From contig JBCCIS010000040.1 in the NCBI GenBank assembly GCA_039028155.1, positions 1-46,676 on the forward strand: a stretch of 46,676 bases of DNA, given 5' to 3'. The notes beneath the pieces are model-generated. The model was not told where the DNA came from and did not search any database. It was given only the letters and a program-made list of their open reading frames with translations. The stretch comes from Pseudomonadota bacterium. Lineage in GTDB: Bacteria > Pseudomonadota > Alphaproteobacteria > SP197. This document shows positions 7,762 to 19,544 of the stretch, in pieces (the first letter of the stretch is position 1; every line of letters begins with the position of its first letter). Made by a program: the position numbers and the translations under genes.

Positions 7762-9150
7762 ATGACCGTACTGCCCAATTCCCCCCATGCTCGCGACATC
7801 AAGAACGTGCTGCATCCCTATTCCAACCTCGTGAAACACGAGGAAAAGGGTCCGCTGATCCTGGAAGAAGGTGACGGCATCTATGTCAAGGACACCGAGG
7901 GCAAGAGCTATATCGAGGGTCTGGCCGGCCTTTGGTGCACGTCGCTCGGGTTCAACAACGAGCGTCTGGTCGAGGCGGCCGCCAACCAGATGCGCAAGCT
8001 GCCCTACTACCACGCGTTCTTCCACCGCTCGAGCATGCCGGCGATCGATCTGGCCGAGCGGCTGATCGATATGGCGCCTGCGCCGATGTCCAAAGTGTGG
8101 TTCGCCAATTCCGGCTCCGAGGCGAACGACCACATGGTCAAGTTCGTCTGGTACTACAACAACGCGCTGGGCCGGCCTGAGAAAAAGAAGATCATCGCGC
8201 GTATCGGCGGCTATCACGGCATCGCCGTGTCGTCGGGCTCGCTGACCGGTATGCCGCTGATGCACGCCGGCTTCGACCTGCCGATCCACAACATCATGCA
8301 CACGGGATCGCCGCACCATTACAAGTTCGCCGAGTCCGGTGAGTCTGAGGAAGATTTCGCGACCCGGCGCGCCAACGAACTGGACCAGATGATCCAGGAC
8401 GAAGGACCGGAGACGGTGGCCGCGTTTGTCGCCGAGCCGATCATGGGCGCCGGCGGCGTTATCCTGCCGCCCAAGACCTATTTCGAGAAGATCCAGGCGG
8501 TGCTGAAGAAGCACGACGTGCTGATGGTCGCCGACGAGGTCATCTGCGGCTTCCACCGCACCGGCAATCTGTTCGGCTCCAACACCTATGACATCAAGCC
8601 GGATATCATGGTGGTTGCCAAGCAGTTGAGCTCGGCCTATCTGCCGATCTCGGCCACGATCATCAACGAGAAGGTCTATCAGCCGATCCGCGACTTCTCC
8701 GGCGAGAACGGCGTGCTGGCGACCGGCTTCACCTATTCCGGCCATCCGGTACCGGCCGCGGTCGCCATCGAGACGCTGAAGATCTACGACGAGATGGATA
8801 TCGCGAGCCACGTGAAGAAGGTCTCGCCGCTGGCTATGGAGCGGCTCGCCAAGCTGGGCGATCATCCGCTGGTCGGCGAGGCCCGCGGCACCGGCCTGAT
8901 CGGCGCCGTCGAGCTGGTCAAGGACAAGGAGACGAAGGAGAACTTCGGTCCGGAAGTCGCGGCCTATTGCGGCGAGGCCTGCCTGGACCACGGTCTGATC
9001 CTGCGCGCGGCCGCGGGCAACTCCGTCGCGTTCTGTCCGCCGCTGATCATCCAGGAAGACGAGATCAACCAGCTGTTCGACCGCTGGGAAAAGGCGCTGG
9101 ACGACACGCTGGCCTATGTCCAGTCGGAAAACCTGATGGCCGCCGAATAG
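7762..9150 (+). CDS. Class III aminotransferase (omega-amino acid:pyruvate type)
   Basis: This is a 462-residue fold-type I PLP aminotransferase of class III. The cofactor lysine is Lys287 in VVAKQLSSAYLP, the PLP-nitrogen aspartate is Asp258 in VADEVICGF, and the stacking aromatic is in GGYHGIAV (Tyr151). The N-terminal LWCTSLGF and the PYYHAFF segment are typical of omega-transaminases acting on beta-alanine, polyamines or amines with pyruvate. GAGGTG about 8 nt upstream fits the ATG. A strong terminator follows. The exact amino donor is not predictable, although a polyamine-type binding protein occurs at the far end of the window. Confidence 0.88.
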   Translation: MTVLPNSPHARDIKNVLHPYSNLVKHEEKGPLILEEGDGIYVKDTEGKSYIEGLAGLWCTSLGFNNERLVEAAANQMRKLPYYHAFFHRSSMPAIDLAERLIDMAPAPMSKVWFANSGSEANDHMVKFVWYYNNALGRPEKKKIIARIGGYHGIAVSSGSLTGMPLMHAGFDLPIHNIMHTGSPHHYKFAESGESEEDFATRRANELDQMIQDEGPETVAAFVAEPIMGAGGVILPPKTYFEKIQAVLKKHDVLMVADEVICGFHRTGNLFGSNTYDIKPDIMVVAKQLSSAYLPISATIINEKVYQPIRDFSGENGVLATGFTYSGHPVPAAVAIETLKIYDEMDIASHVKKVSPLAMERLAKLGDHPLVGEARGTGLIGAVELVKDKETKENFGPEVAAYCGEACLDHGLILRAAAGNSVAFCPPLIIQEDEINQLFDRWEKALDDTLAYVQSENLMAAE

Positions 9151-9165: not shown

Positions 9166-10722
9166 CTAGAGAGAGCCGCCGGGACCTTCAGGTTCCGGCG
9201 GTTTTCTTTTGGCCACGAAGTCAAGGAGATCATCCAGCAGATCCATGTCGTTGATGATACGCGGGACCTTGTGCTGACCGCCCAACTGGCCACGTTTCTT
9301 CATCCAGTCGTAGAAAGCCCCGGGCGTGGCGGCGTGCAATTGCGGTGCGAGCATGCCGATGCGGTGCGCGCCATAGTCGTCGTTGCACTGGGAGAGACCT
9401 TCGTCGATCAACCGCATGAACCGTCCGCATGTGTCGGGATCGGGCACCGGCCCGTCGAACTCAACGATATAGACGTGACCGCCCTTCGGTTCCGAGGCGG
9501 TCGGGTAGATCGGGCCCACGGCGAACTCAACGATACGCCTGCCGATTGCCGAAGCGGAGTCGGTGACGACATCGTCAATCTCCGAGGCAATCAGATGCTC
9601 GCCAAAGGCTGAGAGCATGAATGAGGTCCGGCCGGTAACCAGAAGACGCGGCGGCGCCCTGTCGACGAAGGCGACGGTGTCGCCGAGCACGTAACTCCAG
9701 GCGCCCGCGCAGGATGTGACGACGATGGCGTAGTCGACACCGGTTTCGACATCCGCAAGCCAATGACGCGTCGGGTTGGCGGTGCCGAGTTCGTCGGCCG
9801 GCACGAACTCATAGAACAAGCCACCATCGGCGATCAGACGCATGCCCTCACCGTCCGCGCGGTCGGCGATGGCGATGAAACCCTCGCTGGCGGCATAGAC
9901 TTCGCGAGTCTTGCATCGGCTTCCCGTGAGCCACTCGCCGAAAGATGCACGGTAAGGCGCAAAATGGACGGCGCCGTGGACGATCATCTCGAGATTGGGA
10001 AAGAACGACGTCAGACGCGCCTCGTTGTCCGGCTGCAGCGCACGCAGCCTGTCGAGGAAGACCAAAAGCCAGCTTGGCGTACCGCTGATCGAACGGATGT
10101 CCTGGCCAATTGCGGCACCCGCTAAGGCATCGAGCCGCTCTTCCCAATCGGCAATCGTCTCGAGCTCTCGTGGCGGGAAGTAGCGCCAGCGCACCCAGCT
10201 TGGCATCACCGATGCGGCGATACCGCTGAGGTCACCAGTACGGACACCCGGCGCCAGTTCGCGCAGGCCCGTACTGCCGCCCAGCACGAAGTTCAGGCCG
10301 GCTAACAACGTGCTGCCGGGTGTGTTGCGCAAATGATGAACCAGAATGTCTGCGCCGGCGAAGGTGTTCGACCGGTTCATCTCGTGGGTGCACGGGATGT
10401 ACTTGGTCTTACCGGTGGTCGTCCCGGAGGTCTCGGCGAAGAAGGGAACGGTTCCAGGCCACGTACAATCCGTCAACACTGGAAACGCGGATGACCAGTA
10501 GTCTTCCCAGAAATCCTCGAAGCGTCTTAAGGGTACGCGCTCCTGAAAGGTCTCAACATCGGTGATGGTGTCGAAGCCATGGTCCCTGCCAAAGCGCGTG
10601 TCGCGGGCCTTTGTGACGAGCTTCAGCAGTTCACGCTTCTGCGCATTGACCGCATCTTCGCGATCGAGCTGCCGGGAACGCCAGCCGGCATAGACTCGAA
10701 GCAGCGGTGTCGCATCAAGCAT
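9166..10722 (-). CDS. GH3-family acyl-adenylating amido synthetase
   Basis: The product (518 residues from the ATG at 10722) resembles GH3 enzymes, known from plants as jasmonate or auxin amino acid conjugases and also widespread in bacteria. All three nucleotide-binding motifs of the ANL-like fold are readable: TSGTTTGKTK (98-107), YAASEG (276-281) and YVLGDTV (344-350), followed by a GRTS hinge near 364. The family adenylates a carboxylate, then transfers the acyl group to an amine, usually an amino acid. The frame extends back to 10779 inside the acylase gene, but AGGAGG at 10738-10743 favours 10722. It is the last gene of a five-gene minus-strand block. Substrates are unknown. Confidence 0.85.
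   Translation of the reverse strand: MLDATPLLRVYAGWRSRQLDREDAVNAQKRELLKLVTKARDTRFGRDHGFDTITDVETFQERVPLRRFEDFWEDYWSSAFPVLTDCTWPGTVPFFAETSGTTTGKTKYIPCTHEMNRSNTFAGADILVHHLRNTPGSTLLAGLNFVLGGSTGLRELAPGVRTGDLSGIAASVMPSWVRWRYFPPRELETIADWEERLDALAGAAIGQDIRSISGTPSWLLVFLDRLRALQPDNEARLTSFFPNLEMIVHGAVHFAPYRASFGEWLTGSRCKTREVYAASEGFIAIADRADGEGMRLIADGGLFYEFVPADELGTANPTRHWLADVETGVDYAIVVTSCAGAWSYVLGDTVAFVDRAPPRLLVTGRTSFMLSAFGEHLIASEIDDVVTDSASAIGRRIVEFAVGPIYPTASEPKGGHVYIVEFDGPVPDPDTCGRFMRLIDEGLSQCNDDYGAHRIGMLAPQLHAATPGAFYDWMKKRGQLGGQHKVPRIINDMDLLDDLLDFVAKRKPPEPEGPGGSL
9175..9210 (+). terminator. Rho-independent terminator of the aminotransferase gene
   Basis: An 11-bp GC-rich stem (CCGCCGGGACC / GGTTCCGGCGG, with one G-T pair) and a TTCA loop are followed by TTTTCTTTT on the plus strand, 25 nt after the aminotransferase stop. 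The whole hairpin lies inside the last codons of the convergent GH3 gene, encoding its Pro/Gly-rich tail. Confidence 0.85.
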
Positions 10723-10741
10723 GGTGTCTGATGCCGACCTC

Positions 10742-13027
10742 CTAAGGCGACAACACGGTGGTCGCGACCGCCTGATCACGGACGGTGGCGACGGTTAGCG
10801 GCACCTGCACGTATTCACCGGTCTGCCACAGGTCGACCTGATCAAGAAACGTCGTGCTGTTGAACCAGCCGTCCTGACCGCCGAGCAGGACGAAGTAGTT
10901 GGCGTCGGGATCGGCCATGTCGGAGATGTGCCGGGCCTGCGAACCGTAACGCACCTGATGGCGCTCGCCTGCCGGACCGTGAGCCGTCTTCATCAGCGAT
11001 TCAGAACTGCCGCCGGCGGGCAGGTCCAGGAACCTGTAGCGGCTGCCGACAATGGGGATATTAGCCAGGGGATGCTGGATAATCAGCCGGTGCCTGTCGC
11101 CCCAGGTGTCGCCACTGGCGTAGGCGCCGGACGCCGCCGCAAACCCCTCGCCCATCGCGGCGCGCAGGACGGCCTGATCGGCACCAGCGATGTCATCCAA
11201 GGTAATCTCCTGGGTCCGGTCCATGCCGGCGAAAGCCTCCCAGTCCTCGCCGCCGACGATCTCTTGATAGAACTTGGCGAGGAAGGCTGCGCGGAACGCC
11301 TCGAATGCGACGGCGCCACGGGAGTCCAAGTTGTAGTGACCGTCCCATGCCGTGATCGCCTGCCACGCCACGGCTTGATCCGGCGCCAACGCGGTCGCGG
11401 CATCCAACGTATCGACCTGGCGCGCGATGGCGTCACGCAAATCGACCGCCGAGGCCATGTAGACATCCTGCTGCAGGGCGGCGAGCAGATCGACGTCGAC
11501 ACCTGGTGACGTCTCAATCATCTCGGCCATGCGATCGACCCGATCATCAGGTGAGAAGAAATAGCCTACGGGAACAGGACTTCCCGCCGGACGGTTGTTC
11601 GCCGATGTCAGGTAACCGGCTTCAGGATTATAGGACGCCGGCAGGTCGGCGGTCGAAATCGACTGGTCCCAGGCCTGTGCATGCTCTTCGATGGCGATGA
11701 TCACATCCTCGGGCGGCTCAGCACCGCGCCGCGGCAGGCGCGCCGCCATGATCTTGCCGATGTTGCCGTCGACATCGGCATAAAGCATGTTCTGGGCCGG
11801 CACGGCGAACGTTTCGAAGGCGCCGACGAACTGCTCGAAGGTTGTCGCCTGGCTAACCTTCAAGAAGGTCGTCACTTCGTCGCTTGGGGTGTGGCCGACC
11901 CAACTGAGCGCGAGCGGGCCCTCGGTCAGGCCGGCGAACTGCGGCGCGTCGGAGACAACCGGTCCTGCCGGCGCTTCACGGATCGTCACCGTATCGTCGA
12001 ACCACCAGCGCACGCCGACCTCCTCCTGCCGGTCCGTGATGGCATCAGGCGGCAGCGAGGAGATATCGACGAGGTCGCTGGACGCGGCCCTCAGATTGGT
12101 GCCACCCCAGGCGATAGACGGATTTCGCCCGATGGCGAAGACCGGCAGGCCGGCGCCCATCAGGCCGACGACATGGTAGGACGGCGACTTGACGCCCGCG
12201 ACCAGCCAGATGTTCGGCACAAAGATGCCGAGGTGCGGATCGTTTGCCATGATGGCGCTGCCGTTCGCGGTCAGCGATGGCGCGACCGCGACGCTGTTGC
12301 TACCGGATCGCGACGTGTAACCGAACAGGTCGTTGAAGCTCGCGATCTCGGCGCCGTCGCCGTTTTCCAGGATCGGTACCGAACCGTTGCCGATCAGGCG
12401 CGCCCACAGGTCGGGCCAGTCGTCGCGGTCGCGCAGCGGCAGCAGGCTGAACCAGACAAGCCACGTGATATCGGTCGCCGCCAAACGCCCCATGGTCAGG
12501 ATATCCCTTACCGTCCACGGTTCGCGCTGCAAGTTCAGTACCCTGAACTCAAGCGGCAGGGTCTCCGTGTTGTCGACATAAAAGTTGATGCCGGCGACAA
12601 AACCCTCGAGCCATTCACGGGTCGCAGGCGGCAGGTCCGCCTCGATCGCTTCGGCGGTGCGCTCGAAGTTGAGAATGCGCAGGCCATAGTCGATATCGGT
12701 CGCGAGCGGACCGCCCATTTCCGAGACCCGACCCTGGGATACCTTTCGGAAGAGTTCCATCTGACCGAGCCGTAAGTGGGCATGCACCAAGCCCAAGGCG
12801 AACGCGGCGTCGCGGTCGTGGTCGGCCTCGACAAAGGGAATCTGATGACTGTCCCAATAGATGCGGACTGCCCCTTCGACAGGCGCGCCTTCGGTTGGGA
12901 TCGTTGCGAGACGTGTCTCAACCGTCGACTCATCGGGCAGCGGCGTCAGCAACGAGCACCCCGCCAGAAAAACCGCAGACAATCCTCCTGCAGCCGCCCG
13001 CAACATCAATCTCCAATGTTTTTTCAA
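10742..13027 (-). CDS. Penicillin acylase family lipoprotein (Ntn-hydrolase)
   Basis: The 761-residue precursor has a lipoprotein signal peptide with lipobox LAGC (Cys24), so it should be exported and membrane-anchored in the periplasm. It then has the two-subunit layout of the penicillin-amidase family. Autocleavage should fall between Gly242 and Ser243 (SRSGSNSVAV), freeing Ser243 as the catalytic N-terminal nucleophile; NDPHLG near 262 is another family block. Members cleave amide bonds of penicillins, N-acyl-homoserine lactones or acylated siderophore precursors. It starts 38 nt after the FAD oxidoreductase and ends 20 nt before GH3, so a gene breaking amides sits beside one making them. 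Antibiotic hydrolysis should not be assumed. Confidence 0.88.
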   Translation of the reverse strand: MKKHWRLMLRAAAGGLSAVFLAGCSLLTPLPDESTVETRLATIPTEGAPVEGAVRIYWDSHQIPFVEADHDRDAAFALGLVHAHLRLGQMELFRKVSQGRVSEMGGPLATDIDYGLRILNFERTAEAIEADLPPATREWLEGFVAGINFYVDNTETLPLEFRVLNLQREPWTVRDILTMGRLAATDITWLVWFSLLPLRDRDDWPDLWARLIGNGSVPILENGDGAEIASFNDLFGYTSRSGSNSVAVAPSLTANGSAIMANDPHLGIFVPNIWLVAGVKSPSYHVVGLMGAGLPVFAIGRNPSIAWGGTNLRAASSDLVDISSLPPDAITDRQEEVGVRWWFDDTVTIREAPAGPVVSDAPQFAGLTEGPLALSWVGHTPSDEVTTFLKVSQATTFEQFVGAFETFAVPAQNMLYADVDGNIGKIMAARLPRRGAEPPEDVIIAIEEHAQAWDQSISTADLPASYNPEAGYLTSANNRPAGSPVPVGYFFSPDDRVDRMAEMIETSPGVDVDLLAALQQDVYMASAVDLRDAIARQVDTLDAATALAPDQAVAWQAITAWDGHYNLDSRGAVAFEAFRAAFLAKFYQEIVGGEDWEAFAGMDRTQEITLDDIAGADQAVLRAAMGEGFAAASGAYASGDTWGDRHRLIIQHPLANIPIVGSRYRFLDLPAGGSSESLMKTAHGPAGERHQVRYGSQARHISDMADPDANYFVLLGGQDGWFNSTTFLDQVDLWQTGEYVQVPLTVATVRDQAVATTVLSP

Positions 13028-13065
13028 CTACCGACTCGCGCGATCGAACCTCGACGCCCTATACG

Positions 13066-14208
13066 TCAGGAAACCTTGGTCAGATTTTGACAACGCGCCG
13101 GCGACAGCGTCTGCCGGGTCAACCCCGCTTTCGCCAGCGCGTCGGGCAAATCGCGATCCAACAGGATCGACGCCGCGTAAGCCGACAGCGCCGCCGACGT
13201 CTGGATACCCGCGCCACCCTGACCGACATTCCAGAAAAAACCATCGGCCCTGGCGTCCCACCCGGTGACCGGCAGGCGATCGGCGACAAAGCTCCTGAGC
13301 CCCGCCCAGCGTTTCTCGAAGCGTCGGATCTCCAGCGATGTCCACGCCATGATGTTCTCCGCTGCTTGGGCGAGGTCGAGTTCTTCCGGCTGGGCATCGC
13401 ACGGCGCGCTCGATGTCTCATCGGCCAGGGACCCCATCATCAATCCAGCTTCCGGTTTGAAGTAGAAGGACTCGCCATCGTCTGCGACCAGGGGCCAGTC
13501 CGTGCAGTCGACACCGTCCGGTCCCCTAAATGTAAACGCCGTGCGCCGACAAGGCACGAGACCGACCGGATCGACGCCCGCAAGCTTCGCCACCGCATCG
13601 CCCCAGGCGCCCGCGCAGTTGGCGACAACCGGCGCGCTGAACGTGCCGGCCTTGGTTTCCACCTGCCAGACACTGTCACGGCGGTCGAGCGCCGTGACGT
13701 CGGCATCGCAGACGAGTTCGGCACCCGCCCTGCGCGCGGCTTTCAGGTAGCCGCCGTGGATCGCGCCGACATCGATGTCGCCCGCCGTCGGCTCAAAAAG
13801 GCCATAGGCGACTTTCTCAGGTTTCAAGACCGGACACCTCTGCAGACAGCCGTCGACTTCCAATCGAAAAAGAACCGTGCCCATGAGGTTCGACAACGAA
13901 TCTTCACTGAAATGGGCGTCTTCGGTCTCATGTCCGACCAGCAACAGGACCGGACGTTCGCGCAGCAGCGGATAGTCGGTGAAGCCATCCGGCGGCGCAT
14001 CGATGAAGCGGCGGGTCTCTTCCGACAACGCCTGCACAACAGTGCCGCCGATCACATCCGTATAGTGGGCGGCCGAACGGCCGGTGCTGTGATAGCCCGG
14101 CTGTTCCTCGCGCTCGATCATGATCACGCGCCGATGGGGCGCCAACTGGAAGGCGAGCGCCGCGCCGACCGCGCCAGCGCCGATGATGATGACATCGGCC
14201 TCGTTCAA
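13066..14208 (-). CDS. FAD-dependent amino acid oxidase/dehydrogenase (DAO/DadA-like)
   Basis: I choose a TTG start at 14208, giving 380 residues. GGAG lies 7 nt upstream, and this start places the dinucleotide-binding motif GAGAVG at residues 10-15, as usual. The alternative ATG at 14262 would add a basic tail encoded inside the RND gene. The protein fits the DAO fold: GRSAAHYTDVIGG after the first beta-alpha-beta unit, NCAGAWGDAVA in the middle and FWNVGQGGAGIQTS near the C-terminus for the second FAD contact. Such flavoenzymes oxidise glycine, sarcosine, D-amino acids or 2-hydroxy acids. It begins 4 nt after the RND stop codon, so translational coupling is likely. Confidence 0.8.
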   Translation of the reverse strand: MNEADVIIIGAGAVGAALAFQLAPHRRVIMIEREEQPGYHSTGRSAAHYTDVIGGTVVQALSEETRRFIDAPPDGFTDYPLLRERPVLLLVGHETEDAHFSEDSLSNLMGTVLFRLEVDGCLQRCPVLKPEKVAYGLFEPTAGDIDVGAIHGGYLKAARRAGAELVCDADVTALDRRDSVWQVETKAGTFSAPVVANCAGAWGDAVAKLAGVDPVGLVPCRRTAFTFRGPDGVDCTDWPLVADDGESFYFKPEAGLMMGSLADETSSAPCDAQPEELDLAQAAENIMAWTSLEIRRFEKRWAGLRSFVADRLPVTGWDARADGFFWNVGQGGAGIQTSAALSAYAASILLDRDLPDALAKAGLTRQTLSPARCQNLTKVS

Positions 14209-14212
14209 ACGC

Positions 14213-17200
14213 CTACTCCGCCGGTTCCCGCGTTGGCTGACCGGCGGCCGCCGCCTGCGCATGCGCCTTTGGTTTGGTCACCTTCAGGAAGATACCAAGC
14301 AGCGGCGGCACGAGCGCCAGCGTCAAAACCGCCGAAAGCGAGAGGCCGCCGACCACGACGGAGCCCAGCCCGCGGTAAAGCTCCGACCCCGCGCCCGGGA
14401 AGACGACCAGCGGCAACATGCCGCACACACTGGTCAGCGTTGACATGAAGATCGGACGGACACGGTTGCGCACCGCCTCCTCGACCGCATCGCCCGGCGA
14501 CATCGCGTCTTCGCGGATGTGGTGCAGCGTCTGGTGGACGAGCAGGATCGCGTTGTTCACGACAATGCCGATCAAAATGACGAAACCCAGCATGGTCAGC
14601 ATGTCGAGCGGCAGGCCGACGATCGCCAAGCCCAAGACGCCACCGGCGGCCGCGACCGGTACGGAGACCATGACAATCAGCGGATAGATGAAACTCTCGA
14701 ATAGAACCGCCATCACCAGATAGACGATGATAAGCGCCACCAAAAGGTTGAGCACCATGGCGTCCCATGTCGTCGAGAGCTTGTCGGCGGTGCCGGAGAA
14801 TTCCATCGTCACGCCGGGCGGCAATCCGGCCTCTTCCAGTGGCGCAATGACCTGATCGCGAATGATCTCGATGCCGGTCTCTAGCGGGATATCGTCGGCA
14901 AGGCCGATCTGAAGCGTCACCGTGCGTTCGCGTTCCAGCCTGCGGATCTGGGTCGGGCCGCTGGTCACCTCGATATCGGTCAGCGAACTGACCGGCAGAA
15001 TAACGCCGCTGCGCGTCACGATGGGTAGTTCGCCGATGCCTTGCGTCTCGTCGATATGATCGTCGGGCCCGGTCAGCATCAGGTCGATCTCCTTGCCGTC
15101 GACGGAAATCTCGTCGACCCTGATGCCCGAGTTGAAGGCGTCGATGCCCATGGCGAGTTCGCGCGCCGTCACGTCGTTGTCGGCAAGCTTGACGCGGTTG
15201 GGAAACACCCGGACCTCGGGAGAGCCGTTTTCCAGACCGGGACGCGGCCGGATCTGATTGCCGGCTTCTTCCGGCAGGTTCATTGCGACAAGACCGTAGG
15301 CCTGGAGCGCGACCTGATAGATCGGCTCCAGTTCGGGCCCGGAGATGTTGAGATCGATGTTTCTGCCGCCACCGACACCGCGGCCAAACAAGGACGGCTG
15401 GCTGAAGAAGCCGAACGTGCCGGGTTCCTCAAAGACGGGATCGCGCATCAACGGGATGAGATCCCGGACACGATCGGGATTGCTGGCCGCCCCGCCGACA
15501 AAGGTCCAGGTCGGGCTGGCAACGAAGTAGAAACGCTGGAACTTCGGACTGCCATCCTCGGCGTCTTCCGGCCCGGTCTCGACCTCCCAATAAGGACGAG
15601 TCTCGGCTTCGACCCGCGCGGCGATTTCCGCCATGGTATCGAGGTTGTAGCCCGGCGGCGGCAGGATCGAGCCGAAGACGAAGTTCTGGTTGCCCTCCGG
15701 CAGGTACTCCAGCTTGGGCAGCAGAATATCGGCGACAACGACGGCCAGGACACAGATACCGCCGACGACAACGACGGCAGCGACACTGCTTTTCACGACG
15801 AAGCGGGCGAACCAACCCATCGCGTTGTTGAACGCGCGGGCGGGAACATCAATGAACGGCAATCGGAAGCCTGCGGTGCCTTCCGCGCGCGTCAGTATCT
15901 TGGCGGAAAGCGCGGGGATCAACGTGACGGCGACCACAAGCGACAGCAGCACCGAGACGGAGATGGCGACGGCGATATCACGGAAGACCTGACCGGCTTC
16001 AAGCTCCATCACCAGGATTGGAATGAACACCATGACCGTGGTCAGTGCCGAGACCAGAATGGCGCCCCAAACCTGACGTGCGCCCTCATAGGCCGCCTGC
16101 TTCGTCGGCATGCCCTGCTGGCGCAGCCGGTAGATGTTCTCCAGGACAACGATGGCGGCATCGACCACCATGCCGACGGCAAAGGCGAGCCCCGCCAGTG
16201 ACACCACGTTGATCGACCGGCCCAACGCCGCCATGGCAACGAAGCTGCCGATGACCGAGATCGGAATGGCGATCGAAACGATGAGTGTCGCGCGCGGCGA
16301 GCGCAGGAAGACCAGCAGGACAAAAGCCGCGAGGACACCGCCGATCCAGATGTTCTGCTCGACCAGCGCAATCGCCGAATCGATATAGATCGTCTCGTCA
16401 TAGACCTGAATCAGTTCCAGCCCGGCATCGGGCATCACCCCGGCATTAAGCTCGTCGACGGCCTCGCGAACGCCTTTCATGGTCTCGATGACGTTGGCGC
16501 CGGCCTCGCGGATCGCGTTGAAGACCAGCGCCGGCTGACCATTGAAACGGATACGTGATGACGGTTCCTTGTAGTCGAAGGAGACCTCGCCCAGATCGTC
16601 GACGGTGACCCGCGCCAGACGATCCGACTCGATATCCTGAAGGCTGCGCACGACAACGCTTCGGATATCGTCGAGCGCCTCGAAATCGCCTTCCGAGCGC
16701 ACCGTATAACGGCGCTTGCCCTCGTCGATGTAACCGGCCGACGCCGACGAATTGGCATTCTGCAGGGCCAGCACGACCTCCGGCACAGTCAGGCGATAAC
16801 GCGCCAGGTTCTCCGGTACGATGGTGACGCGGATCTCCCGCTCGCTGCCGCCATACATGTTGACGCGCGATATCCCGGGCACGCGTTCGATGCGCTCCTT
16901 GACGACGTCTTCGAAGAAGTCGCCGTACTCATGCATCTCCCGCTCGTTGCCCGGTTGATGGATGATCGTGAACCAGGCAATCGCCTTGTCCTCGGCGCTC
17001 GCGGTATCAAGCGTCGGTTCGTCGGCCTCGTTGGGATATCCCTCGACACGGTTCAGCCGGTTCGACACCAGCAACAGGGCGCGGTCCATGTTCTGACCGA
17101 TGGCGAACTCCAGCGTGATTTCGCCATAACCCTGATAAGCCTGCGAGAGCATCTCCTCCAGACCGGTCAGGCCGGTCAGGACCTCTTCCTGGCGGATGAT

Positions 17201-17389
17201 GATCTCTCGTTCGACCTCGGCTGGCGCGGCACCCGCCCAGTTGGTCGTGATTGTAATGACCGGACGTCGAACATCCGGCGTCAACTGGATCGGAATTGTC
17301 TGAAGCGCCAGCAGGCCGAACATGATGACCATCAGCACCGCCGCCACAACGGCGATGGGTCGTTCGATGGCCAGGCGAATAAGGTTCAT
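14213..17389 (-). CDS. RND efflux transporter permease subunit
   Basis: The 1058-residue inner-membrane pump has a transmembrane helix at the N-terminus (PIAVVAAVLMVIMFGLLAL), two large periplasmic loops and two blocks of transmembrane helices, as in AcrB-type proteins. In the fourth helix, GMVVDAAIVVLEN keeps one proton-relay aspartate (Asp410) where AcrB has two adjacent ones, and the tenth-helix lysine position reads GIVVNNAILLV. This pattern is common in the less-studied HAE branches. The adaptor gene ends 2 nt upstream. No outer-membrane channel gene is present in the window, so a TolC-like partner must be encoded elsewhere. The exported compound is unknown. Confidence 0.93.
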   Translation of the reverse strand: MNLIRLAIERPIAVVAAVLMVIMFGLLALQTIPIQLTPDVRRPVITITTNWAGAAPAEVEREIIIRQEEVLTGLTGLEEMLSQAYQGYGEITLEFAIGQNMDRALLLVSNRLNRVEGYPNEADEPTLDTASAEDKAIAWFTIIHQPGNEREMHEYGDFFEDVVKERIERVPGISRVNMYGGSEREIRVTIVPENLARYRLTVPEVVLALQNANSSASAGYIDEGKRRYTVRSEGDFEALDDIRSVVVRSLQDIESDRLARVTVDDLGEVSFDYKEPSSRIRFNGQPALVFNAIREAGANVIETMKGVREAVDELNAGVMPDAGLELIQVYDETIYIDSAIALVEQNIWIGGVLAAFVLLVFLRSPRATLIVSIAIPISVIGSFVAMAALGRSINVVSLAGLAFAVGMVVDAAIVVLENIYRLRQQGMPTKQAAYEGARQVWGAILVSALTTVMVFIPILVMELEAGQVFRDIAVAISVSVLLSLVVAVTLIPALSAKILTRAEGTAGFRLPFIDVPARAFNNAMGWFARFVVKSSVAAVVVVGGICVLAVVVADILLPKLEYLPEGNQNFVFGSILPPPGYNLDTMAEIAARVEAETRPYWEVETGPEDAEDGSPKFQRFYFVASPTWTFVGGAASNPDRVRDLIPLMRDPVFEEPGTFGFFSQPSLFGRGVGGGRNIDLNISGPELEPIYQVALQAYGLVAMNLPEEAGNQIRPRPGLENGSPEVRVFPNRVKLADNDVTARELAMGIDAFNSGIRVDEISVDGKEIDLMLTGPDDHIDETQGIGELPIVTRSGVILPVSSLTDIEVTSGPTQIRRLERERTVTLQIGLADDIPLETGIEIIRDQVIAPLEEAGLPPGVTMEFSGTADKLSTTWDAMVLNLLVALIIVYLVMAVLFESFIYPLIVMVSVPVAAAGGVLGLAIVGLPLDMLTMLGFVILIGIVVNNAILLVHQTLHHIREDAMSPGDAVEEAVRNRVRPIFMSTLTSVCGMLPLVVFPGAGSELYRGLGSVVVGGLSLSAVLTLALVPPLLGIFLKVTKPKAHAQAAAAGQPTREPAE

Positions 17390-17391
17390 GG

Positions 17392-18483
17392 CTAGAACGC
17401 CACCGCCTGTCCGGGGTACAGCCGTTCGTTGCCGCGCACCACGACCAGTTCACCGGGCTCAAGACCGCTCAAAACGATGAAGCGCGCGCCAACCGCCGAT
17501 CCCAGAAACACTGGTCTCGGCTGGGCGGCACCATCCACGACGACGAAGACCGACGCACCGCCGCCGCCTCTGTTGATCGCGTCCTTGTGCACGGTGACGG
17601 CATCGCGCAATTCGCCGACCGGGATCTCGACCAGCACGGTCTGACCGTCGGCGACCGTTCCGGGTGTTACGTCCCAGTTTGGCGAAAACCGCACCGGCCG
17701 CGTTCTGGCCTGGGCATTCTCCGCGACACCCACCGCGCGCACCGCCGCCTGGTGCGGCTCGCCGCTGTCACCAACGTAGTCGACGCTGACGGAGACACCC
17801 GGCAACAGGCCGCCAATCGCGTCGTAAGGCACGTCGGCTTCGATCTCGATGGTGCCGTCGTTCACCATGTCGACAATGGCGCTACCGATATCGACATAGG
17901 AGCCGATCTCGGTGTGGCGCAGCTCGATGACACCGTCATAGGGCGCACGAATAACCGCGTCATCGACCTCGTCCTGAGCCAGGGCCAGGTTCGCCTCGGC
18001 GCGGATCAGCGCGGCGTTGGCCACGGAGACCTGCGCCACGGACATGGCCACCTGTTGTATCTGGTCGTCGTGGCGTGCTTGCGAATAGGCCGCGGACTCC
18101 GACAGATCCTCAAGCCGCACCAGCGCTTGGCGCTGCAGCGACAGGTCGGCTTCGGCGGCGACCAGGAGCGCGCGCGCCTGCTCGACCTCGGCGGCTAGGA
18201 GGTCGCGGCGCAGTTCCATGCGATCGGACCGGATTTGGACCAGCTTGTCCCCGGCCAGGACACGATCGCCGACCTCGACAAAAACGTTTTCGACGGTGCC
18301 TTCGACTTCCGTCGCGACGGTCCCGGACTGGCGCGACACAAATCGGCCGATGACATTGGCCGTTTCGTTCACCTGCTCGACAATCACCTCGTCGACGCCG
18401 ACAAGCACCGCGTCGTCCTGCGCCAAGGCAGGCGAAGCGAGGCCGACCACGACAACTAGGCCTAAGAGAATCCGTGGAATCAT
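17392..18483 (-). CDS. RND efflux periplasmic adaptor (membrane fusion protein)
   Basis: The 363-residue protein begins with a cleavable signal peptide (cut near SPALA, residue 21). The usual adaptor modules follow: a lipoyl half-domain (VEGTVENVFVEVGDRVLAGDKL), a coiled-coil hairpin from about 85 to 150 (VEQARALLVAAEADLSLQRQ), the second lipoyl half (IRAPYDGVIELRHTEIGSYV) and beta-barrel and membrane-proximal domains. It would link the pump to an outer-membrane channel. It is the first gene of the minus-strand block. The 128 bp upstream, shared divergently with the histone-deacetylase-like gene, should hold its promoter, but I see no convincing one, and its ribosome site is poor. Confidence 0.92.
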   Translation of the reverse strand: MIPRILLGLVVVVGLASPALAQDDAVLVGVDEVIVEQVNETANVIGRFVSRQSGTVATEVEGTVENVFVEVGDRVLAGDKLVQIRSDRMELRRDLLAAEVEQARALLVAAEADLSLQRQALVRLEDLSESAAYSQARHDDQIQQVAMSVAQVSVANAALIRAEANLALAQDEVDDAVIRAPYDGVIELRHTEIGSYVDIGSAIVDMVNDGTIEIEADVPYDAIGGLLPGVSVSVDYVGDSGEPHQAAVRAVGVAENAQARTRPVRFSPNWDVTPGTVADGQTVLVEIPVGELRDAVTVHKDAINRGGGGASVFVVVDGAAQPRPVFLGSAVGARFIVLSGLEPGELVVVRGNERLYPGQAVAF

Positions 18484-18611: not shown

Positions 18612-19544
18612 ATGACAACACAGCTTTACGTTCATCCGTCTTACCTGGATCACCGAACCGGGCCGCACCACCCCGAACGCCCGGAACGGCTGGAAGCCAT
18701 TCAGCAGGTTCTGGCGCACGACATGTTCGATGCCCTGATACGGGTCGAGGCGCCGCGAGCCGACGACAGCCTGCTGACGCTGATGCATCCGAAGGGTCAG
18801 GTCGACCGTGTTCTGGCGGCTGAGCCCAATCAGGGACTGGTTCACCTTGACCCCGACACGGTGATGTCGCCGGGTTCCGGCGACGCGGCGCTGCACGCGA
18901 CCGGCGCGGTCTGCGCCGCGGTCGACGCGGTGATCGAAGGCGCCGCCGACAACGCGTTCTGCGCGGTGCGTCCGCCCGGTCATCATGCCGAGGCCGGCCA
19001 GGCGATGGGGTTCTGCTTGTTCAACTCTGTCGCGATCGGGGCCGAGCACGCACGCCAGGCGCATGGCATCGCGCGCGCCGCCGTTATTGATTTCGACGTC
19101 CATCACGGCAATGGCACCCAGGCGCTTTTCTGGGACCGTGAAGGATTGTTCTATGGCTCGACCCATCAGTATCCGCACTATCCCGGTACCGGCGCGGTCG
19201 AGGACACGGGCGCCTACAACAACATCGTGAACGCGCCGCTCGCCGCCCACACCGGAAGCGAAGCGTTCCGCGCCGCCATGGAGAAAAGGATCCTGCCGGC
19301 TCTGGACGCTTTCAAGCCGGAGATCATTCTGATATCGGCCGGGTTTGACGCCCATCAGCAGGACCCCCTCGCCAACCTCAATCTGATCGAGGAGGACTTC
19401 GCCTGGGCAACCGATCAACTGGTGGCCATGGCGGATCTGCATGCCGAGGGCCGGTTGGTGTCGTCGCTTGAAGGCGGGTATGACCTGGACGCCCTAGCCA
19501 CCAGCACGGCGACCCATGTGATCCGATTGATGGCTGCGGCGTAA
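18612..19544 (+). CDS. Histone deacetylase-like (acetylpolyamine amidohydrolase/AcuC family) hydrolase
   Basis: This is a 310-residue arginase/deacetylase-fold enzyme. The zinc ligands are Asp162 and His164 (DFDVHHGNGT) and Asp246 (AGFDAHQQDP), the charge-relay histidines are His124 and His125 (RPPGHHAEAG), and the C-terminal EGGYDL supplies the transition-state tyrosine. Bacterial members deacetylate small acetylated amines or acetylated proteins; histones are not implied. It heads the cluster xseB-ispA-dxs, with xseB starting 12 nt later, an arrangement I recognise from several Alphaproteobacteria. The role in that operon is unknown. Confidence 0.9.
   Translation: MTTQLYVHPSYLDHRTGPHHPERPERLEAIQQVLAHDMFDALIRVEAPRADDSLLTLMHPKGQVDRVLAAEPNQGLVHLDPDTVMSPGSGDAALHATGAVCAAVDAVIEGAADNAFCAVRPPGHHAEAGQAMGFCLFNSVAIGAEHARQAHGIARAAVIDFDVHHGNGTQALFWDREGLFYGSTHQYPHYPGTGAVEDTGAYNNIVNAPLAAHTGSEAFRAAMEKRILPALDAFKPEIILISAGFDAHQQDPLANLNLIEEDFAWATDQLVAMADLHAEGRLVSSLEGGYDLDALATSTATHVIRLMAAA

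Follow-up and report, generated by a model that had tools for sequence, protein, structure and literature searches.

Conserved pairing of acylase and GH3 genes in Alphaproteobacteria: a five-gene block best explained as two modules

Gene content of the block

The window, i.e. the whole stretch of DNA analysed here (46,676 nucleotides), is an entire contig of an alphaproteobacterial genome (G000:C40). It carries five co-directional minus-strand genes (Table 1), whose positions and Pfam domains agree with the original prediction of an RND adaptor, an RND pump, a DAO-type flavoenzyme, a penicillin-acylase-family protein and a GH3-like enzyme. Read in this order, the intergenic gaps are 2, 4, 38 and 19 nt; the first three are as predicted, and the last had been given as 20 nt. 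The GH3 gene starts at the ATG of MLDATPLL and has AGGAGG upstream. Sigma-70 and terminator sites that would split the five genes were not found beyond the counts in shuffled sequence, and the spacing makes a single transcript for all five plausible. Searching of the DAO protein with NCBIfam models gave no equivalog at cut-off.

Table 1. Genes of the five-gene block and its immediate flanks in the window.
Feature	Position	Strand	Basis and remarks
Class III aminotransferase	7762-9150	+	PRK06105 subfamily above cut-off; convergent to block
GH3-type acyl acid amido synthetase, OlsH family	9166-10722	-	Pfam GH3/GH3_M/GH3_C
Penicillin-acylase-family (S45 Ntn) amidohydrolase, predicted lipoprotein	10742-13027	-	TTG start; Pfam Penicil_amidase
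DAO-family FAD oxidoreductase	13066-14208	-	TTG start; Pfam DAO
RND efflux permease, HAE1-like	14213-17389	-	Pfam ACR_tran 680 bits
RND periplasmic adaptor	17392-18483	-	Pfam HlyD/RND_mfp; TIGR01730 RND_mfp above cut-off
HDAC-family gene	18612-19544	+	Pfam Hist_deacetyl; divergent; first of HDAC-ispA-dxs

The N, middle and C Pfam domains of the GH3 protein are all above cut-off, and the three nucleotide motifs attributed to it are present as TSGTTTGKTK, YAASE and GAWSYVLGD. These motifs are invariant or nearly so in the GH3 protein alignment, and each matches the motif position reported for OlsH. The protein has no recognisable export signal and is predicted to be cytoplasmic. Its structure model is poor (pLDDT 62) and was excluded from the argument.

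The acylase is a full-length S45 Ntn protein, with a Penicil_amidase domain of 489 bits at residues 54-750. Its predicted export as a lipoprotein agrees with the presence of a lipobox (LAGC24), and about 25 of 29 acylase sequences with an intact N-terminus carry a lipobox-like cysteine. With an AlphaFold model of pLDDT 88.8, D-succinylase is the best PDB match by both sequence (E 9e-38) and structure (Z 45, 2.9 A, 688 residues); cephalosporin acylases rank next, together with MacQ, a long-chain AHL acylase, and PvdQ is also matched. The score of the protein against the NCBIfam PvdQ equivalog model is 22.5 bits, where the cut-off is 950. In the predicted structure, Ser243, which had been named as the nucleophile, aligns with residue B1 of penicillin and cephalosporin acylases, and as the autoproteolytic serine it lies in a G242-S243-N244 motif that is invariant in 31 of 31 aligned neighbours. 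Also invariant in the aligned neighbours are His265 (B23 by count), N477 and R499, the last two being 22 apart, a spacing like that of AsnB241 and ArgB263 in penicillin G acylase. The protein is thus predicted to be an active-looking amidase anchored outside the cytoplasm.

The locus in related genomes

In sibling genera of the window's family the locus is kept without the acylase and GH3 genes. An S24-like regulator and the aminotransferase are followed by convergent DAO-RND-adaptor genes and then by the divergent run HDAC-ispA-dxs. Two such loci are whole (L124 and L127); in L125 the contig stops on the DAO side, without the aminotransferase, in L128 it stops in the RND gene, and L126 has the same order without RND and adaptor. 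In L124 and L126 about 90-100 bp separate the aminotransferase from DAO, while the slot is filled by an EamA-type transporter gene in L127 and by Rieske/ring-hydroxylase pieces in L128. In the window's genus (G000 and G001/L013), it is precisely this slot that the acylase-GH3 pair occupies, and the tight co-directional spacing of the five genes is also found in the second genome (L013).

The closest acylase and GH3 found outside the genus (63-65%) are those of G093, from a more distant family. In this genome adaptor-RND-DAO, with RND and DAO overlapping by 4 bp, adjoins HDAC-ispA-dxs on one contig, and acylase-GH3 is on another (L105 and L106). Beyond the window's family, RND-adaptor adjoins HDAC-ispA-dxs in L113 as well, and in L112, a short contig, it adjoins HDAC alone. 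This gene order suggests that HDAC-ispA-dxs are the ancestral neighbours of the pump. Because sibling genera keep the locus without the pair, adaptor-RND-DAO is the older resident, with acylase-GH3 added behind it, between DAO and the aminotransferase. No acylase or GH3 remnants were found in the sibling slot, and a search for flanking direct repeats at the insertion gave weak, chance-like matches only.

Linkage of the acylase and GH3 genes across the class

Among 385 genomes drawn evenly from the class, 47 have this GH3 at E <= 1e-80, and in 29 of these the coordinates place an acylase gene no more than 500 bp upstream on the same strand. Ten of the 47 encode the acylase at another place in the genome, in some cases at a contig end, and eight lack it; in two of these eight (L014 and L015) GH3 lies at the edge of its contig. 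The acylase is carried by 39 of the 47 genomes with GH3 versus 18 of 338 without it (odds ratio 87; Fisher p 1e-31, with no correction for phylogeny). Neither gene strictly requires the other, since those 18 genomes have the acylase but no GH3, and 18 of the 47 with GH3 have no acylase linked to it. A set of named genomes, largely distinct from the first, contains 58 GH3 rows from proteobacteria. The acylase is linked in 33 of them, including rows from Rhodospirillales, Acetobacteraceae, Rhodobiaceae and Rhodovibrionaceae, and the linkage is scattered across the GH3 tree with 11 state changes. The two genes often overlap, abut or lie a few nucleotides apart, and their protein distances are correlated (r 0.70, Mantel p 0.0005), as expected from shared inheritance. 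Outside the class, a genome from the same phylum also has acylase followed by GH3 (39% and 45% identity, L117). No third gene is conserved beside the pair across families beyond local synteny. Together, these patterns support acylase-GH3 as a real conserved unit of a predicted amide maker and a predicted amide cutter. The pair is apparently both widely conserved and undescribed, as we found no relevant bacterial paper joining GH3 and penicillin acylase among the open-access papers searched.

The same linkage does not extend to the pump and the oxidase. DAO and RND homologues are encoded in many of the 51 GH3 genomes (the 47 of the class survey and four further members of the family), but in the 49 that lie outside the genus neither comes within 5 kb of GH3. 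In G044 and G174, two genomes of family f30, RND-adaptor genes lie downstream of GH3 at a distance of about 10 kb, in the same orientation. Of the four partners proposed in the original prediction to recur beside GH3, the acylase does so, even in another class, and DAO, RND and adaptor do not. The accompanying proposal, that the pump exports the GH3 product while the flavoenzyme handles the amino acid, is not supported, given this absence of linkage and the siblings that keep DAO-RND-adaptor without the pair. The block is best explained as two independent modules placed end to end, adaptor-RND-DAO and acylase-GH3, and it illustrates that what looks like a neat "operon" of five genes can consist of two unrelated modules joined in this way.

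The surroundings of GH3 vary among families. Tandem duplicate GH3 genes with no adjacent acylase are found in L109, L054 and G210:C1:153074-156173. Other hydrolases, of the Amidohydro_2 and dienelactone-hydrolase types, lie upstream of acylase-less GH3 genes in L046:184-1023, L036:8130-9131 and L045:3391-4404, which is possibly a case of partner replacement. In another genus of the window's family, an M81/MlrC-type metallopeptidase gene is directly upstream of the pair (L016:5683-7185 and L017:7625-9127). In the region L020:6882-9676 (G000:C13, ~84.9-87.7 kb), the window's genome also has a second, divergent GH3, 5 nt upstream of a gene of the enolase superfamily (MR/MLE), the best models for which are o-succinylbenzoate synthase and DgcA, below cut-off. 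The enolase superfamily includes N-acylamino acid racemases.

Some of these neighbourhoods may be of a lipid type. An alpha/beta-hydrolase gene precedes the pair in L107, L030 and L031, and in L015 and L047 it stands before a GH3 gene without an adjacent acylase, an arrangement reminiscent of OlsI, the hydrolase encoded next to OlsH; no OlsI model is among the NCBIfam matches of the proteins from L030, L107 and L047. Further downstream at these loci is a cluster of amine oxidase, DUF1365 and cyclopropane-fatty-acid-synthase-like (CMAS) genes; in the family of L107 and L030, where the cluster follows the pair, this context favours a lipid role. In Rhodobacteraceae (L066, L069, L070 and L072), a GNAT-like gene of 352 aa comes after GH3, with an SDR gene and one for a BioF/serine-palmitoyltransferase-like enzyme on the opposite strand, a possible sphingolipid-like set.

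A candidate N-acyl amino acid cycle and its known relatives

OlsH-type bacterial GH3 proteins were assigned a function only in 2025, when Sinac_1599 of Singulisphaera was described as OlsH, a GH3-like lyso-ornithine lipid synthetase that uses ATP to join free fatty acid to ornithine, giving N-acyl ornithine (PMC12493201). Its authors note that other amino acids may be the substrates of homologues elsewhere, and leave open the role outside planctomycetes, including the products in proteobacteria (PMC12493201). The window's genome has an OlsB-OlsA operon (L110), where the OlsB (297 bits) and OlsA (260 bits) models are the best matches, both slightly under their cut-offs, and a strong OlsB-type acyltransferase is encoded in 49 of the 51 GH3 genomes. 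This suggests that GH3 is dispensable for ornithine lipid, and therefore that its product is probably an N-acyl amino acid different from the precursor of ornithine lipid.

We consider it fairly probable that the block is of two modules, with the acylase as the only conserved partner of GH3, and that GH3 makes such an N-acyl amino acid while the acylase, facing outwards, cleaves this compound or related amides. The comparisons above establish the gene pair, the fold, the catalytic residues, the export signal and the insertion; for the substrates, the direction and the cycle itself, we infer the following course. In the cytoplasm, GH3 would adenylate a free acyl acid (a fatty acid being most likely) and transfer the activated acyl group to an amino acid, giving an N-acyl amino acid lipid distinct from the ornithine-lipid precursor made by OlsB. 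On the outer side, the lipoprotein acylase would hydrolyse this product, or similar amides from neighbouring cells, to fatty acid and amino acid. The freed acid, which is the very form of substrate that OlsH needs, could then re-enter and be re-activated by GH3, completing a cycle of synthesis and turnover, or head-group exchange, across the inner membrane. Synthesis and hydrolysis encoded in one operon could be futile unless they are spatially separated or regulated. Most economically, both enzymes would act on one class of compound, each from its own side of the membrane.

Several other readings were weighed. The acylase might mainly attack foreign N-acyl compounds (AHLs, N-acyl amino acids or aminolipids), with GH3 re-using the fatty acid, in the service of nutrition or quorum quenching. 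A surface lipoprotein with the fold of the AHL acylases MacQ and PvdQ, encoded without GH3 in 18 genomes, would suit this role, as would the use of free fatty acids by OlsH; we nevertheless regard it as unlikely, as scavenged fatty acids normally enter metabolism via an acyl-CoA ligase and not an amino-acid ligase, and the strong tie of the acylase to one GH3 subfamily is left unexplained. That GH3 is a true OlsH making lyso-ornithine lipid, and the acylase an enzyme of ornithine-lipid turnover, is suggested by the OlsH model NF052613 being its sole NCBIfam match and by all eight members of the GH3 alignment matching this model. The score of 550.5 bits is, however, under the equivalog cut-off of 620, and the OlsB-OlsA operon, together with the OlsB-type enzymes of nearly all GH3 genomes, makes this identity quite improbable. 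Alternatively, GH3 could add a fatty acyl membrane anchor to an amino acid or small peptide, to be removed in the periplasm by the acylase, freeing a finished product. PvdQ, a structural match of the acylase, performs such a removal of an acyl group for pyoverdine, but with no gene for an NRPS, transporter or tailoring enzyme conserved beside the pair, we find a maturation role of this kind very improbable. Least credible is the earlier reading that all five genes serve a single pathway, with an N-acyl amino acid made by GH3, exported through RND and then matured or removed by the acylase, and with DAO oxidising the amino acid: the tight co-directional spacing kept in L013 makes read-through transcription likely, but siblings hold the pump and oxidase at the locus without the pair, GH3 genomes outside the genus hold the pair without a nearby pump or oxidase, and two relatives have other genes in the slot.

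Returning to the cycle of synthesis and hydrolysis, we tentatively raise the possibility that many Alphaproteobacteria run an N-acyl amino acid cycle split across the envelope, with a GH3 ligase of non-ornithine product inside and a co-encoded Ntn lipoprotein acylase outside. If so, the product would be a new aminolipid or signal with a built-in off-switch. The conserved acylase partner in many alphaproteobacterial families offers a concrete handle on the GH3 proteins, as both enzymes should share one amide; if they do, a widespread aminolipid or N-acyl amino acid cycle would follow.

Four known systems are most similar to the pair. The window GH3 belongs to the same subfamily as OlsH by NCBIfam model and has the same three nucleotide-binding motifs, and independence of CoA and ACP is expected of it; it differs in scoring below the equivalog cut-off, in having a penicillin-type acylase as partner rather than OlsI or OlsG, and in residing in a host that already has OlsBA. 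Planctomycete OlsH is in an operon with OlsI, an alpha/beta-hydrolase O-acyltransferase (PMC12493201), whereas in the window no alpha/beta-hydrolase is found beside GH3 by Pfam. The plant GH3 amido synthetases JAR1 and GH3.12 share the fold family, the motifs and the order of reaction, acyl-adenylate and then amide, but are remote (best PDB profile E 2e-23), and the acyl acid of the window GH3 is expected to be a fatty acid. On the acylase side, D-succinylase of Cupriavidus, likewise an S45 Ntn hydrolase, has its Ser nucleophile in the same place, and is an N-acyl-D-amino-acid hydrolase that prefers a short acyl group, succinyl (PDB 7EBY/7EA4). It is only about 25% identical to the window acylase. 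We know of no GH3 partner for D-succinylase. The AHL acylases PvdQ and MacQ are weaker matches (Z 26-36), and the NRPS context is missing at the window pair, but they have the same fold and nucleophile as the window acylase and hydrolyse long-chain N-acyl amides in the periplasm.
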